The translations under genes and the position numbers were made by a program. The notes under the pieces were generated by a model. That model saw only the letters and a list, made by a program, of their open reading frames with translations. It ran no database searches and was not told the DNA's origin. A stretch of 64,000 bases of DNA from an uncultured Candidatus Melainabacteria bacterium (GTDB taxonomy: Bacteria; Cyanobacteriota; Vampirovibrionia; Gastranaerophilales; Gastranaerophilaceae). The stretch is taken from contig CANOTP010000004.1 of NCBI GenBank assembly GCA_947570135.1, forward strand, positions 124,001-188,000. Direction: 5' to 3'. This document shows positions 12,855 through 47,824 of this stretch, piece after piece; positions within the stretch are counted from its first letter, which is position 1, and each line of letters starts with the position of its first letter.

Positions 12855-13589
12855 TCAGGCAATATAAAATACTAAATTAATCAGGAAATCCGCAACTAGC
12901 ATATAAATAGTTGAAAGGATTGCGGCTTGGGTAGTTGAGGTGCCGACTTCTTTAGCTCCGCCTTTTGTTTGATAACCCTTTGTCGCGCAAACTAAAGCAA
13001 TCAAAGCTCCGAATATGCAGGCTTTTAATAAACTTATATAAATATCTTTTGTAGCAATCCATGCCCAAACAGATGCCATATATCTTGCAGGGTTAAGATT
13101 GATTGTGCCCAATGCAACAAGCATTCCGCCCATAATTCCTATAAATTCTGCAATAAGTACAACCATCGGAACTGTTATGGCTGATGCGAAAACCCTTGGA
13201 GCAAAATAATATCCGACGGGGTTAACTTTAAGAGTCTTAATCGCGTCAACTTGAGATGTTACCTGCATATTGGCAATCTCAGCAGATATCGCTGTTCCTG
13301 CTCTGGCACCTATTGCTAACGCTACAAATCCAGGGGCAATTTCTCTTATCATTACAATTGCAATTGTTCCGCCGATATAAGTTTCAGCCCCTGTCATCAA
13401 GAATTCTTTTGAAACCTGAATTGCGATAACCGCAGCAGAAATAAACGCGATTACAAGTGAAATCGGCAAGGAATCATAACTTATTGCGGCAGCTTGAGAG
13501 ATTACCGTTCTGAACTTCAGGTTTCCGCCAAAAAGGTATTTAAAACATTCTATAAGGTTTTGAACGCATAATCCTAAGAATTTAATCAA
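12855..13589 (-). CDS. mlaE: MlaE-family ABC transporter permease (lipid transport)
   Basis: 244 residues with about five membrane helices. The MlaE signature is seen in QVSKEFLMTGAETYIGGTIAI, REIAPGFVALAIGARAGTAISAEIANMQVTSQVDAIKTLKVNP and FAPRVFASAITVPMVVLIAEF. Members form the inner-membrane core of Mla/TGD-type complexes that move phospholipids between membranes; cyanobacteria and chloroplasts have the homologue TGD1. No ATPase or MCE-domain partner is adjacent. A MlaA-domain protein lies 12 kb away (25979), so the outer-membrane end may be encoded in this same region. It is followed by no obvious terminator. Confidence 0.92.
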   Translation of the reverse strand: MIKFLGLCVQNLIECFKYLFGGNLKFRTVISQAAAISYDSLPISLVIAFISAAVIAIQVSKEFLMTGAETYIGGTIAIVMIREIAPGFVALAIGARAGTAISAEIANMQVTSQVDAIKTLKVNPVGYYFAPRVFASAITVPMVVLIAEFIGIMGGMLVALGTINLNPARYMASVWAWIATKDIYISLLKACIFGALIALVCATKGYQTKGGAKEVGTSTTQAAILSTIYMLVADFLINLVFYIA

Positions 13590-25978: not shown

Positions 25979-28111
25979 ATGTTTAAAAAAAGATTTATTG
26001 CACTGGGGATTTTGCTGTGCTTAATTTCTAATAATTTTGTGGTGCTTGCGGTTGAAACAAAGTATCCTGATTACGGGTATGAGTTTTTGGGAGAAGACAG
26101 GTGGGAAGGTTTAAACCGTAAAATTTTTAATTTTAATTTGGGATTAAATAAGTACGCGATTCGTCCGATACATATTTTGTGGTCATCAATTATGCCCGAG
26201 TACGGAATGGACAGGATTCAGGGGATTACAAATAATATTGAGTATCCGATAAGACTTGTAAGCAGCCTTATTCAACGGGATTTTCAAATCTCCAAAAATG
26301 AAACGATAAGATTTTTTACAAATACGGTTCTGGGGTTAGGAGGAATGTTTGACCCAGCAAAACATTTATTTAAAATTGAACAGTCAAGTGAGAATATGGA
26401 ACAGGCTTTGGCGGGGTGTAAGATGAAAACGGGAAGATATTTTGTTTTTCCTGTTTTATCATTTACCTGTTTTAGGGGGCTTATTGGGAAAGTTTTAGAT
26501 ACAGCGCTTAACCCCGGATCTTATATTGCAACCCCCGTGCTTGCTGCAGTTAAAGCCGGGCTTACGATAAATAAAACATCTTATATGCAGCCGTTAATCA
26601 AGATGGTTGAATCAACTTACGCTGACCCGTATGAGATTGCCAAAAAGATTTATGCAATTGATAATTACATAAAATGCGCAAATCTTGACAGAATTGATAT
26701 AAAAGAACTTTTGGTTGTGCCTGTTGAAGAAAATGAAGAGTTAACCAAGGCAAAGCCTTCCGTTATTGAGGTTAAAAAATCAACAACCGAGCAGCCTATT
26801 GATAAAAAAGAAGATTTTGTAAAAATTGAGGTATCTTCTGAAATTGTACTTCCTGACCTGCTTTTTGGCGGAACAAATCTTGATGAAGTTTTAAAAAATC
26901 ACAGCGCGGAAAATTTCAAGCTCGGGGCTGATATGTTTTTACCCGGGTATAACCCTCAAACTCCTGTAATTGATTCAATGAGAACGGCTTTATTTGATTT
27001 ACCGGGGGTGGATGAATCGGTTTGGAATGAGTTGTCTGTTTGGAACAGAAGTTTCAGTAAAAGAATCAGAAATTCTTCTGTTAATATCTTTGAAGGCAGC
27101 GAAGATTATAAATTCAGATATATTTTACAAAAAGACCGTAAGGCTCCATTGGCTGTTATTTACCCTTCAATCGGAGAAGGTGTTATGTCAAGCCATTCGG
27201 TATTATTGGCAAAACTTTTCTATGATGAGGGGTATTCCGTTGTTATTCAGGGAAGTCATTTTCAGTGGGAGTTTGTAAAAAGCATGGAAAAAGGTTATAA
27301 ACCCGGGCTTCCTGCGCGAGATTCGGAAAGTTTAAGGCTTGTGACTTCAAAAATTATTGACTCGCTTCATAATAAATACGGCTGCGAATTTAAAGAAAAA
27401 GTTTTTATCGGAACATCTTTCGGAGCTTTGGCATCGTTATTTTTAGCTGATAAAGAATACAAAAATAATACGCTCGGGAATACAAGATATATTGCGATTT
27501 GCCCGCCTGTAGAACTTATGTATGCGATGTCGCAGATTGATAAAAATACGGATGAGTGGAACAAATCGCCTGAGGATTTAAAACAAAGAGTTGCAATGAC
27601 TGCGGCTAAGGTTATGAAACTCTATGAATCAAGAGATTCACTTGATTCAACAGGTGAGATAAATTCATTACCGTTCACGGATGATGAGGCAAAACTTATT
27701 ACTGGATTTATTATGCACCAAAAGCTTTCTGATTTGGTTTTTACAATGGAAAACGGTTCAAAATCAACAAAGTCAGATATTTATCAAACCCTTAATAATA
27801 TGAATTACCAGGATTATGCCGAAAAATATCTTCTATCTTCAGAAGATTGCGGAGTTGATTCACTTGCGTATGAAGTCAGTTTGCATTCGATTTCAGAGTA
27901 TTTGGTTAATTGTGATAACTATAAAATTTATCATTCACTTACCGATTATCTTACTAATAACAAGCAGTTGAAAAAATTAAAAGAATACTCTCAGGATAAA
28001 GTTGTTTTAATTGATAACGGCGCGCATTTGGGTTTTTTGTACAGGCAAGAATTTATTGATGATTTGAAAGAAACAATTTCGCTAAATTCTAAGTTTATCG
28101 CAGGTAAGTAG
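25979..28111 (+). CDS. MlaA (VacJ)-like domain fused to an alpha/beta-hydrolase-like domain
   Basis: 710 residues. The signal peptide is MFKKRFIALGILLCLISNNFVVLA. Residues about 35-235 match MlaA: WEGLNRKIFNFNLGLNKYAIRPIHILW, TNNIEYPIRLVSSLIQRDF, RFFTNTVLGLGGMFDPAKH. MlaA normally ends there and removes phospholipid from the outer leaflet of the outer membrane. Here a linker leads to a second domain (about 380-700) with APLAVIYPSIGEG, the nucleophile-elbow-like GTSFGA (Ser480) and a distal GAHLGF that could hold the catalytic His (about 682), as in alpha/beta hydrolases. The two parts together suggest lipid extraction with lipolysis or acyl transfer. AGGAAAA precedes the ATG. The catalytic acid is not identified. 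Confidence 0.8.
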   Translation: MFKKRFIALGILLCLISNNFVVLAVETKYPDYGYEFLGEDRWEGLNRKIFNFNLGLNKYAIRPIHILWSSIMPEYGMDRIQGITNNIEYPIRLVSSLIQRDFQISKNETIRFFTNTVLGLGGMFDPAKHLFKIEQSSENMEQALAGCKMKTGRYFVFPVLSFTCFRGLIGKVLDTALNPGSYIATPVLAAVKAGLTINKTSYMQPLIKMVESTYADPYEIAKKIYAIDNYIKCANLDRIDIKELLVVPVEENEELTKAKPSVIEVKKSTTEQPIDKKEDFVKIEVSSEIVLPDLLFGGTNLDEVLKNHSAENFKLGADMFLPGYNPQTPVIDSMRTALFDLPGVDESVWNELSVWNRSFSKRIRNSSVNIFEGSEDYKFRYILQKDRKAPLAVIYPSIGEGVMSSHSVLLAKLFYDEGYSVVIQGSHFQWEFVKSMEKGYKPGLPARDSESLRLVTSKIIDSLHNKYGCEFKEKVFIGTSFGALASLFLADKEYKNNTLGNTRYIAICPPVELMYAMSQIDKNTDEWNKSPEDLKQRVAMTAAKVMKLYESRDSLDSTGEINSLPFTDDEAKLITGFIMHQKLSDLVFTMENGSKSTKSDIYQTLNNMNYQDYAEKYLLSSEDCGVDSLAYEVSLHSISEYLVNCDNYKIYHSLTDYLTNNKQLKKLKEYSQDKVVLIDNGAHLGFLYRQEFIDDLKETISLNSKFIAGK

Positions 28112-28168: not shown

Positions 28169-29188
28169 ATGCAAATAAACGGCTTTTCTACTGTCCGACC
28201 TGTTAATCCCCGCCCCGTGCAAAATTTTACGGGAACTTATGAAGATAAATTGCGTGAAAAAGTTCAGGGTAAAGAAGTTTTTAAAGATGCAACAAACATA
28301 CAAATTAGTGCTTTAAAAACTTATATAGAGACACAGAAGTACGCTCTTGGGATGACTCCTCAAGATGTAGCTGAACTCTCAAAATATGACGGTAATGATT
28401 TTATACTAAAATCTTATGAATATTTAATCAATAAACTTAACATCCCGGGAGAAATAGCACCGCCTTTTACTGTTCAAAATAATATGAAAAATGCTCAGTC
28501 TTTACTTATGATGTATATGCCTGCGATGAATATTATTGTGGTAAATTCGGATCAATGTAAAGATCTTGATAAAACAACTACATTTAAAATGCTAAGACAT
28601 GAATTACAGCATTATATGCAAAATATAAATATTTTAAGACATGAAACTTTTGGTGATGAAGCAATTGATATTTATAAAGAAAAATACATGGATGTTCAAC
28701 AAAAATCGTTCGATGTTCTTTATGCAAATAATATGATTCCACAGCTTCTTCAATCTCCTGAAATTCCAATGAATGAAAAAGTTTTACTTCAGTATTTTAA
28801 AGAGTTGAAAGATGCAAATAACACAGAAGGAATTAATGCTTTATTTGAAAATGTTTCTAAAGATTATGTTAAACAACTTACTTCTTTCAGAGATAATGTG
28901 AGAAAAAAATTAGGCGTAATCCCTGCTGAAGATACAGGAACCGAAAAAATTAAAGAATATTTTAATGAGTTTAAAAATGTCGGGTATTTCAATCCAAACG
29001 GAGAAGTTGATGCTAAAAAATATTTTCAAAGTAAGATTGAAGAGGATGCGTGTTCAGCTCAAGAACGTGCAGGATATGAGTTCTCACAGCAAGGCTGTTT
29101 TATAAGATATGCAATTGATACGTTTGAAAATGCTATGAAGTCTGAACAGTTTAAAAATGAAATAAATAAGTTGAATATGCAGGGTTAA
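28169..29188 (+). CDS. Unknown protein with HExxH zinc-protease-like motif
   Basis: 339 residues. The central segment MLRHELQHYMQNINILRHETFGDEAIDIYKEKY contains HELQH, a candidate zinc-binding catalytic motif. The distal FGDEA might provide a third ligand, but I recognise no specific peptidase family. The N terminus (MQINGFSTVRPVNPRPVQNFTG) is polar, without a signal peptide, and ends in NFTG like neighbouring unknowns. The C-terminal part is helical (DACSAQERAGYEFSQQGCF). TAAGGAA precedes the ATG. It is followed after 20 bases by another unknown gene. Confidence 0.65.
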   Translation: MQINGFSTVRPVNPRPVQNFTGTYEDKLREKVQGKEVFKDATNIQISALKTYIETQKYALGMTPQDVAELSKYDGNDFILKSYEYLINKLNIPGEIAPPFTVQNNMKNAQSLLMMYMPAMNIIVVNSDQCKDLDKTTTFKMLRHELQHYMQNINILRHETFGDEAIDIYKEKYMDVQQKSFDVLYANNMIPQLLQSPEIPMNEKVLLQYFKELKDANNTEGINALFENVSKDYVKQLTSFRDNVRKKLGVIPAEDTGTEKIKEYFNEFKNVGYFNPNGEVDAKKYFQSKIEEDACSAQERAGYEFSQQGCFIRYAIDTFENAMKSEQFKNEINKLNMQG

Positions 29189-44850: not shown

Positions 44851-45009
44851 ATGAGAGTGTCAGAGTTATTAAAGCTCTCTGGGATAAGCCAGAATGCAAA
44901 TTAAATTTACCATGGCAAAACTAAAGGTATAGATTTTGATACCCTTGATAAGTTGTGTACAGCTCTAAAATGCACAACTCAGGATTTATTCCTTCATATT
45001 CCTACTTAA
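44851..45009 (+). pseudogene. Decayed XRE regulator, head-to-head with the decayed prepilin
   Basis: From ATG 44851: MRVSELLKLSGISQNAN, then a TAA (44902-44904). The same frame continues IYHGKTKGIDFDTLDKLCTALKCTTQDLFLHIPT to TAA 45009, the second half of a Cro/C1-type helix-turn-helix. One in-frame stop in the recognition-helix region and a short N terminus show inactivation. It lies divergent from the prepilin pseudogene. Its 3' end overlaps the AsmA-like gene by 8 bases. Confidence 0.75.
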
Positions 45010-47824
45010 GTTTTTTTAGTGAAGATATAAAGTTATTGTGTTCAACATCTCCGTCAACTTTAGTTAAAAAGATTTGGGTATCTTTTTCATCCGCATCAAT
45101 TTCGGGGATTTCGGATATTTCTGAGGCATAATAATCAGCATCGCTTCGACTGCCCATTGGAATTCTGTTAGCAAGCGAGTTTAGTGAGAAGTTTCTGAAT
45201 AATCCGTACAAACCTTTTTTACGATTAGAAAATTTTGTGTAAATTCTCAGTGCCGCATCTTGACGTTCAAGGTCATAAGTTCCGACAATGTATGAACTTA
45301 ATTGAGGTGCGACTGATTTTATTTTCATCGGCATTACAATATTGTCTTTTAGGATTAAATCACCGTCAATTTGGTCAAATTTTCCTTCCGGAATACTGAC
45401 TAAATCGGATACAACAGACGGGCTTACCATTGTCAGAGGGTTTCTGAATAGTGATGCTACTTTCATAATATATTCAACCAGTCCGACTTTGCCAATAATA
45501 CCTTTGTAAACTCTAAACTGAATACGTCCGTTAAGTTTTAGCGAATCGTCCGTATTTAATTCTATAAGTCCGCTTGCTTTTCCTTGAATTTCTTTTGAAA
45601 GGTTAAGGAGGGACGTTGCGATAATATCTGAGTTAACTTCAATGATACCAAGTCTTATGTGATATTTATGATTTTTCAGGTCACAGTCAATTTTTGCTGA
45701 CGAATGTCCTTCGGCGATTGCAAATTTGTTTGACGTAATCTTTAGCATGCTGTTTTTATCAAGTGTCATATTAGCTGTTACATCAGAAAAATTAATGTCT
45801 TTGTAATGTCCTTCTTTAACTTTTAAAATGCATTCTTCAATAATAAGGTTTGCAAGGTCAAAGGTTTGAATATCATCATCGTCATCCTCATCTGATTCTC
45901 CGTTTTTAGCGATTGATTCTGATATTGCCGCATTTACATTTGTTGCAGCTTGGGTAGGCTGCTGTTGATTAAACAGTTTTAAATATCTTTCTATATCAAT
46001 TTTATCAACTCCGAAGGTGATATTTTTTACGATAATAGGGAATTTAATTTCGTTAACTATTGTTCCTGACAGGTCATAGTTTGAGCGTCTGTATCTTCCG
46101 TCAGATTTTATGTGCATATTATTGCGGTCAGTTTTAAATTCACCATGTTTGATATATAACCTTTGGCTCGGGATTCGCAGATCTTCAACTTTCATATCGG
46201 CTTTAATTTTTGGTGGGAAACCTTTTTTGTTTAAAACATCAAAATGTCCTGTGAAAGTTCCGCCTTTAAACAGTTTTTGTTTTGTAAGCAGGTTAATAAA
46301 CCCGCTTGGCATAGGTTTTGGAAGCTCCATTCCGAATTGTTTTACAAATGTTTGACCGTTTGACAGGTCAAAATCTCCGTAAGCACTGACAATAGGTATC
46401 TTAACCTGTTTCATATCATCTTCGGGGTTCCCTGCGTAATAATTTAGTGATTCAAGATTAAGCAGCATATCTTCAAAATGGATTTTTGCTGACAGAACTC
46501 TGCTTGCCATATCGTTCATTGTAGACTCTTCACCGTCAACGATAAAGCCGCTTCCTTTTTTGAACCAGAAAAGCCATTTCAGGTCAATTTTATTATTAAC
46601 TGAGTGAAGTTTTACTTTTGTATCTGCTCTTCCTTCAATTCCTATCGGGTAATTTGCCATTTTAGAAAGATAATTTTTAGCCAAATCATTTGTAACGATT
46701 GCATTTCCTTCTAAATCCGTATCAACCGATTTTAGGTAATCATCAACCGTACCTTCAAAATCCATGGTATTTGTCGGTTTGTTGTTATAGTAGCCTTTAA
46801 ATTCTTTTAAGAAAATCTTACTTTCATCAAATGAAATTTTACCGTGGTTTAGCAGAACAGGCAAATCTGCAAACGGGATAAGCTTGAATGTTAATTTATT
46901 AAGATTAACATCTCCGCTCATAGTTTTATTTGTTGCTTTTATGTCAAAGTCAAAGTTTCCGTTGATATCTTTAAAAAATACAAGTTGTTCAGTGATATTG
47001 TTTTCAATAATTTGAGAATCCAAAAGTTCTAAGACTGCAGGAATACTGAATGCTTTTGCAGACAGTTCAACGTCAAAATTTGATTTGTTGTCGGCTGTAC
47101 CGTTTAGATTTATTGCAGATTTATTTACAAGAATTTTTGTATTATCAATGACGGCTTTTTCTTTGTTTTCAATGTAAACCTTGTTATCATCTTTGGTTTG
47201 AACGGTTAACTTATTTTTGTCTTTTGTTATTTCTGCTTTAATGTTGTAATTAATGTGTTTTTTATCAGGATTTTCGTCGATTTTAACTCCTGTTGAATCA
47301 ATAAAGACCGTAGTTTTTTTGTCTGGCATGTAAATAATTTCGGCTTTATCAAGCGCTACAACAGAACGAAATACGTCAAAATTCCAATCATATTTTTGCT
47401 GCGGTTTTTCCTGCTCCTGTTTTAAAAACGGAAGGTCTAAAACTTTGTTTACGTCGGTATAAAAATACCCCAGTGTTGCTTTATTTAATACGATATTTTT
47501 ATCAAAAATTTCGGCAAATGACAGATTTACGTCTAAGTCTTTGAGGTCAAGAACTTTGTTTTTATTTGAACTTAAGGTGATTTTATCAACGCTGAAATTT
47601 ATGTTTGGCGAAAGTTCGGTTTTAAGTTTCGGGTTTTCTATATCCAGGTCGACATAGTATGCCTTTTGAGTAATATTTTTTACGTAATTTATTACTTTCG
47701 GGTGAGATACGGCATAAGGCAGACCTTTTAAATATAAAAGCATGGTTAATCCTGCCAATACTGCTAAAAATACTAAACTTATTCCAAAAAATGTTAGAGT
47801 TGATTTGATTCTTTTTGATAACAT
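45002..47824 (-). CDS. Large AsmA/YhdP-like periplasmic bridge protein
   Basis: 940 residues. One N-terminal membrane helix (TLTFFGISLVFLAVLAGLTMLLYL) is followed by a very long beta-strand-rich body with repeated short strand pairs (LDLKDLDVNLSFAEIFDKNIVLNKATLGYFY; YNNKPTNTMDFEGTVDDYLKSVDTDLEGNAIV). An Asp-rich linker (GESDEDDDDD) lies at about residue 645. The C-terminal region with KVASLFRNPLTMVSPSV and VSIPEGKFDQIDGDLILKDN resembles the AsmA/DUF3971 C-terminal part. Such proteins form hydrophobic grooves that move lipid between membranes. The family call rests on overall pattern; length is between AsmA (617) and YhdP (1266) of E. coli. Confidence 0.8.
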   Translation of the reverse strand: MLSKRIKSTLTFFGISLVFLAVLAGLTMLLYLKGLPYAVSHPKVINYVKNITQKAYYVDLDIENPKLKTELSPNINFSVDKITLSSNKNKVLDLKDLDVNLSFAEIFDKNIVLNKATLGYFYTDVNKVLDLPFLKQEQEKPQQKYDWNFDVFRSVVALDKAEIIYMPDKKTTVFIDSTGVKIDENPDKKHINYNIKAEITKDKNKLTVQTKDDNKVYIENKEKAVIDNTKILVNKSAINLNGTADNKSNFDVELSAKAFSIPAVLELLDSQIIENNITEQLVFFKDINGNFDFDIKATNKTMSGDVNLNKLTFKLIPFADLPVLLNHGKISFDESKIFLKEFKGYYNNKPTNTMDFEGTVDDYLKSVDTDLEGNAIVTNDLAKNYLSKMANYPIGIEGRADTKVKLHSVNNKIDLKWLFWFKKGSGFIVDGEESTMNDMASRVLSAKIHFEDMLLNLESLNYYAGNPEDDMKQVKIPIVSAYGDFDLSNGQTFVKQFGMELPKPMPSGFINLLTKQKLFKGGTFTGHFDVLNKKGFPPKIKADMKVEDLRIPSQRLYIKHGEFKTDRNNMHIKSDGRYRRSNYDLSGTIVNEIKFPIIVKNITFGVDKIDIERYLKLFNQQQPTQAATNVNAAISESIAKNGESDEDDDDDIQTFDLANLIIEECILKVKEGHYKDINFSDVTANMTLDKNSMLKITSNKFAIAEGHSSAKIDCDLKNHKYHIRLGIIEVNSDIIATSLLNLSKEIQGKASGLIELNTDDSLKLNGRIQFRVYKGIIGKVGLVEYIMKVASLFRNPLTMVSPSVVSDLVSIPEGKFDQIDGDLILKDNIVMPMKIKSVAPQLSSYIVGTYDLERQDAALRIYTKFSNRKKGLYGLFRNFSLNSLANRIPMGSRSDADYYASEISEIPEIDADEKDTQIFLTKVDGDVEHNNFISSLKKLK

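Follow-up and report, generated by a model that had tools for sequence, protein, structure and literature searches.

At positions 25979-28111 of the window, by which we mean the whole 64,000-nucleotide stretch analysed (contig CANOTP010000004.1 of an uncultured Candidatus Melainabacteria bacterium, positions 124,001 to 188,000), a single open reading frame (ORF) joins MlaA to a C-terminal domain resembling alpha/beta hydrolases (Table 1). The first-pass annotation had described this fusion at the same coordinates, had called its product exported and had pointed to a GTSFGA and a terminal GAH motif. On all these points it is borne out: both domains are recovered by structure prediction, a signal peptide is present, and the two motifs lie at residues 478-483 and 681-683. 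An assembly or frameshift artefact is ruled out by the identical ORF layout in 66 assemblies from many genera.

MlaA part, linker and hydrolase domain

PF04333 is the sole Pfam match of the window protein (residues 39-226, E 1.2e-39, 136.4 bits against a cut-off of 25). Solved MlaA structures align with the beginning of this part in phmmer (E 8e-14), and in an AlphaFold2 model residues 38-238 superpose on 5nup_F over 200 residues (VIA-align Z 19.8, root-mean-square deviation 2.9), so that the modelled chain appears to adopt the MlaA donut fold. The fusion thus resembles MlaA/VacJ of Proteobacteria (PF04333; E. coli MlaA, PDB 5nup and 8i8x) in profile and fold, both proteins are exported, and the E-G-x-N-R..FNFN N-terminal region is retained. 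It differs from MlaA/VacJ in four respects: it has no lipobox, it carries a linker and a hydrolase instead of the tail helix, it occurs in genomes without MlaC, and it falls under the cut-off of the MlaA equivalog model NF011672 (69.2 bits against 375, for a protein of 710 amino acids with an extra domain). A lipobox scan found no lipobox Cys in the window protein and a lipobox-like word in 2 of 60 relatives. Judged by its sequence, the fusion protein is predicted to be exported, yet not to be a lipoprotein, unlike classical MlaA.

The model was built from an alignment of 60 proteins that are 47-89% identical to the window protein, and it reaches a mean predicted local distance difference test score (pLDDT) of 75.9 and a predicted template modelling score of 0.76. 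Compared with the window protein, the relatives are on average 70% identical over the MlaA part (27-245), 25% over the linker, 72% over residues 314-362 and 62% over residues 363-705. The linker (246-313), whose length varies among relatives, is modelled mostly at pLDDT 23-40, with residues 251-313 disordered at pLDDT below 50. These ~70 residues occupy the place of the C-terminal tail helix in E. coli MlaA.

In the window protein itself the C-terminal part has no Pfam match, and its assignment draws on relatives and on the model. Among 45 relatives, Abhydrolase_1 is matched by 24 (best E 1.5e-5), Abhydrolase_3 by 19 and Esterase by 16. The predicted strands (364-368, 377-383, 390-394, 421-424, 473-479, 501-507, 648-653 and 675-679) follow one another in the order typical of an alpha/beta hydrolase, and residues ~320-705 match alpha/beta-hydrolase esterases with Z 13-15 over 230-270 residues in VIA-align, in agreement with Foldseek (probability 1.00). 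A fold predicted from the C-terminal sequence by itself was of no use (pLDDT 34). Searched as a profile against the PDB, the hydrolase alignment returned nothing, and its NCBIfam matches were scattered and not significant.

In the model, the GxSxG elbow and a Ser-Asp-His set stand in the expected order after the expected strands, which suggests a catalytic triad. Ser480, Asp656 and His683 are identical in 60 of the 60 aligned proteins, down to 47% overall identity. A missing hydrolase fold or unconserved catalytic residues had been named in the first-pass annotation as grounds for refutation; the fold is recovered and the residues do not vary. Also invariant across the 60 are G478, G482, G399, E400 and the motif residues G425, F428, W430 and E431. 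The invariant motifs PSIGE and G-x-x-F-x-WE of this domain are unusual for simple esterases. By eye only, 'PSIGEG..SH' resembles the 'HGxGEH' loop of monoacylglycerol-lipase-like hydrolases. Compared with alpha/beta-hydrolase esterases such as Pf2001 of Pyrococcus furiosus (PDB 5lcn; Abhydrolase_1, PF00561), the fold, the GxSxG elbow and the Ser-Asp-His order are alike; the fusion hydrolase differs in its ~12% identity, its own invariant motifs, its lack of a PDB sequence match and its constant attachment to MlaA in the phylum sample.

Conceivably, such a domain might be an acyltransferase, taking a fatty acid from an extracted phospholipid and attaching it to a protein, a glycan or lipid A. 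Acyltransferases of the same fold do occur among the structural matches (2vat, Foldseek), and the invariant motifs atypical of simple esterases would suit such a role; the structural matches are, however, unspecific and no acceptor gene is linked to the fusion, so that we regard a transferase as improbable. Hydrolysis of an extracted phospholipid by an esterase or lipase domain is the activity that we favour, and its setting in the genomes is considered next.

Table 1. Coordinates of the MlaA-hydrolase fusion gene and its parts within the window
Feature	Residues	Window position	Strand	Basis or remark
MlaA-hydrolase fusion ORF		25979..28111	+	710 amino acids, ATG start
Predicted signal peptide, MFKKRFIALGILLCLISNNFVVLA, no lipobox Cys	1-24	25979..26050	+	sequence; lipobox scan of 60 relatives
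MlaA domain	39-226	26093..26656	+	PF04333 profile, phmmer, VIA-align
Linker	246-313	26714..26917	+	low identity, low pLDDT, length varies
Conserved alpha/beta-hydrolase domain	314-705	26918..28093	+	conservation, fold, profile matches in relatives
Ser480, putative nucleophile	480	27416..27418	+	G-T-S-F-G elbow after strand 473-479; invariant 60/60
Asp656, putative acid	656	27944..27946	+	after strand 648-653; invariant 60/60
His683, putative base	683	28025..28027	+	after strand 675-679 (NGAHLG); invariant 60/60

Distribution and partner genes

A protein search found the gene at full length in 28 of 59 related genomes. The sole genome-wide scan, in which exact peptides of the query protein were sought in GTDB contigs, returned 66 loci with a full-length ORF, mostly in records titled Candidatus Melainabacteria, Gastranaerophilales or uncultured bacterium and derived from gut samples. 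Going by these relatives, the window was placed in the order Gastranaerophilales. Two records with deviating titles, Muribaculaceae bacterium (L044, 82% identity) and Fusobacterium sp. CAG:439 (L050, 58%), also carry the fusion and are probably misnamed assemblies. In a class sample of 286 genomes, each at least 90% complete, MlaA is present in 117: in 115 of the 224 that represent the window's own family, in both genomes of a sister family (f7) and in none of the 56 outside the order (the totals 224 and 56 were tallied by hand from the genome list).

Every MlaA of this class sample is part of a fusion (ORF ~625-830 amino acids), except for three fragments cut by contig ends. Candidate stand-alone forms were rejected: the short ORFs in G216, G279 and G287 all stop at contig edges, a 294-amino-acid ORF in G019 runs off its contig, and a stand-alone MlaA at G007:C60:158000-172000 (L163) was taken as contamination, with a lipobox of its own and the proteobacteria-like neighbours SurE, Ndk and NadA. 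Conversely, a profile of the hydrolase domain gave 92 positives among 386 phylum genomes, all of them the same fusion ORFs, one split across contigs; a smaller phylum sample (114 genomes) holds no MlaA outside this group. As far as the phylum was sampled, the two domains are never found apart. Their pairwise distances correlate (r = 0.85 over 1770 pairs, a figure to which kinship alone contributes), as expected if the chain has long been inherited as a unit.

What the hydrolase acts on is a separate matter. An active enzyme might have another substrate at the outer membrane, be it lysophospholipid, triacylglycerol or other dietary gut lipids, or acylated lipoprotein or lipid A; MlaA would then be its uptake pore or no more than a membrane anchor. 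The hosts are gut bacteria by their record titles, the gene is patchily present within the family, as expected of a nutritional trait, and alpha/beta hydrolases are promiscuous, the fold matches here being to generic esterases. Set against this, the MlaA part matches the hydrolase in conservation (70% versus 62% mean identity) and keeps its E-G-x-N-R..FNFN region, which argues against a mere anchor, and the MlaA proteins studied so far handle glycerophospholipid (PMC10665443, PMC10719372). We consider a different substrate possible, albeit rather unlikely.

Which other lipid-handling genes accompany the fusion? MlaC (PF05494), the acceptor in the standard pathway, is matched neither in the window's genome nor, across the class sample, in any genome that carries MlaA. 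The 22 above-cut-off MlaC matches in the class all lie in families f8 and f13, which are without MlaA. MlaC-like proteins without MlaA, as in family f8 (for example G076 and G107) and in G064 of f13, are the reverse of what is seen in the window's family. PldA (PF02253), the phospholipase that usually serves the outer membrane, is matched in none of the 286 class genomes. MlaD/MCE, in turn, is found in all 286 and LpxC in 281 of them, and this near-universal presence implies that the cells have a lipopolysaccharide (LPS) outer membrane to keep asymmetric. The window's genome encodes two MlaE permeases, one at window positions 12855-13589 and one at G000:C4:52361-52993 (L164), of which only the latter is followed by an ATP-binding cassette ATPase. 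Among the three MCE proteins of that genome, one is elongated (~455 amino acids; L128:481-1845, minus strand).

The 455-residue MCE/MlaD protein resembles the 'long MlaD' known from diderm Firmicutes, and a transenvelope bridge made of MlaEFD only, with a long MlaD, has been described in Veillonella parvula (PMC10665443). Like that species, the window's genome combines MlaE with an elongated MCE protein and lacks MlaC; unlike Veillonella, which has no MlaA at all, it has an MlaA, fused to an enzyme. By analogy, the gene content may be said to resemble a Veillonella-like MlaEFD-only set that, in about half of the sampled family genomes, has gained an MlaA-hydrolase.

If MlaC is missing, its place might have been taken by the C-terminal domain in another capacity, namely as a catalytically dead hydrolase fold that serves as a built-in lipid-binding acceptor. 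Pockets of alpha/beta hydrolases can bind acyl chains, and no genome with the fusion has MlaC. A binding-only domain would nevertheless have no need of a full putative triad and nucleophile elbow, and these are invariant throughout the alignment; we deem this scenario very improbable.

Proposed extraction and cleavage in one chain

How might a single chain deal with misplaced phospholipid? What has to be accounted for, from computation, is an export signal, two predicted folds, the invariance of a putative triad, an obligate fusion and the absence of MlaC and PldA. We lean, if only slightly, towards a one-chain device that extracts phospholipid from the outer leaflet and degrades it in place by ester cleavage. 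We envision a scenario whereby the MlaA part, seated in the outer membrane, takes up stray phospholipid from the outer leaflet, and the MlaA channel hands it on to the periplasmic face. There, the flexible linker of ~70 residues would hold a tethered periplasmic esterase or lipase domain, in place of MlaC recruitment, and the putative Ser480-Asp656-His683 set would cut the acyl ester bonds. Mislocalised phospholipid would thereby be destroyed and not returned, and a single chain would perform Mla extraction as well as the job of PldA.

This reading is favoured because, in genomes that lack both MlaC and PldA, a linker and a hydrolase take the place of the MlaC-recruiting tail. The C-terminus of E. 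coli MlaA reaches into the periplasm; there its tail helix, held by a flexible linker, recruits MlaC and brings the MlaC cavity to the MlaA channel (PMC10719372). Overexpressed PldA complements the loss of any mla gene in the same species, and PldA and Mla overlap in clearing surface phospholipid (PMC5874903). The fusion would share with PldA the proposed task of degrading mislocalised outer-leaflet phospholipid by other means. PldA is a beta-barrel acting at the cell surface, whereas the fusion has no PF02253 match and its alpha/beta hydrolase is expected on the periplasmic side. The first-pass idea that one chain extracts and cleaves phospholipid gains strength from the lack of MlaC and PldA; the joint activity itself is something we infer. 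The broader proposition, on which we are evenly divided, is that a gut clade of Vampirovibrionia swapped the MlaA-MlaC retrograde shuttle for an extract-and-digest machine with Mla and PldA functions in one chain.

Several observations weigh against extraction with cleavage. About half of the family genomes are without the fusion and still keep MlaD and LpxC; its function is thus dispensable and not essential to an LPS outer membrane. No characterised protein is closely related to the hydrolase domain, which has no PDB sequence match below E 0.07, so homology gives no guide to its substrate. Two loops of the domain, 397-403 on the presumed oxyanion side and the Trp-rich 347-355, are modelled with pLDDT below 50. 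No conserved operon joins the fusion to lipid genes, and its neighbours are kept only in close relatives. Placement in the outer membrane, phospholipid as the substrate, coupling of channel to enzyme and catalytic activity are likewise steps that we infer.

These considerations bear on how diderm bacteria without MlaC handle outer-leaflet phospholipid. MlaA and MlaC were mostly Proteobacterial in a survey of 1083 genomes (PMC10665443); here, MlaA occurs without MlaC, and precisely those genomes have it fused to a hydrolase. Other bacteria use separate proteins for what is apparently a built-in form of lipid disposal. If the coupling holds, the hand-off from channel to enzyme could be tested within one protein by comparing the wild type with S480A, and MlaA would be able to serve a degradative instead of a transport pathway. 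The protein might also provide a tool, a defined lipid channel carrying an attached reporter enzyme. For the combination of MlaA and an alpha/beta hydrolase in one chain, partial literature searches on MlaA with a hydrolase fusion and on Melainabacteria turned up no published description.

Neighbouring genes

The first-pass annotation had also seen in the MlaE gene and an AsmA-like protein of the window the signs of a rebuilt regional lipid-trafficking route, and this part of its proposal finds no support. The MlaE gene at 12855 lies 13 kb from the fusion, between trpS and a gene for a trypsin-like protease; the 940-residue protein encoded at 45002-47824 (minus strand) has no AsmA profile match and no PDB match; and the neighbours, as stated above, are conserved only among close relatives. 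By eye only, the protein at 45002 looks AsmA/TamB-like, its long, beta-rich body being preceded by a single membrane helix at the N-terminus. An MCE gene does lie close to the fusion in G153 and G170; this looks incidental, since it adjoins a UPRTase gene that accompanies MCE elsewhere too. Downstream of the fusion, an ORF encoding 339 amino acids (28169-29188, plus strand) contains HELQHYMQ, a zinc-peptidase-like motif, matches PhageMetallopep weakly (PF18894, E 0.008) and has related ORFs in three loci.
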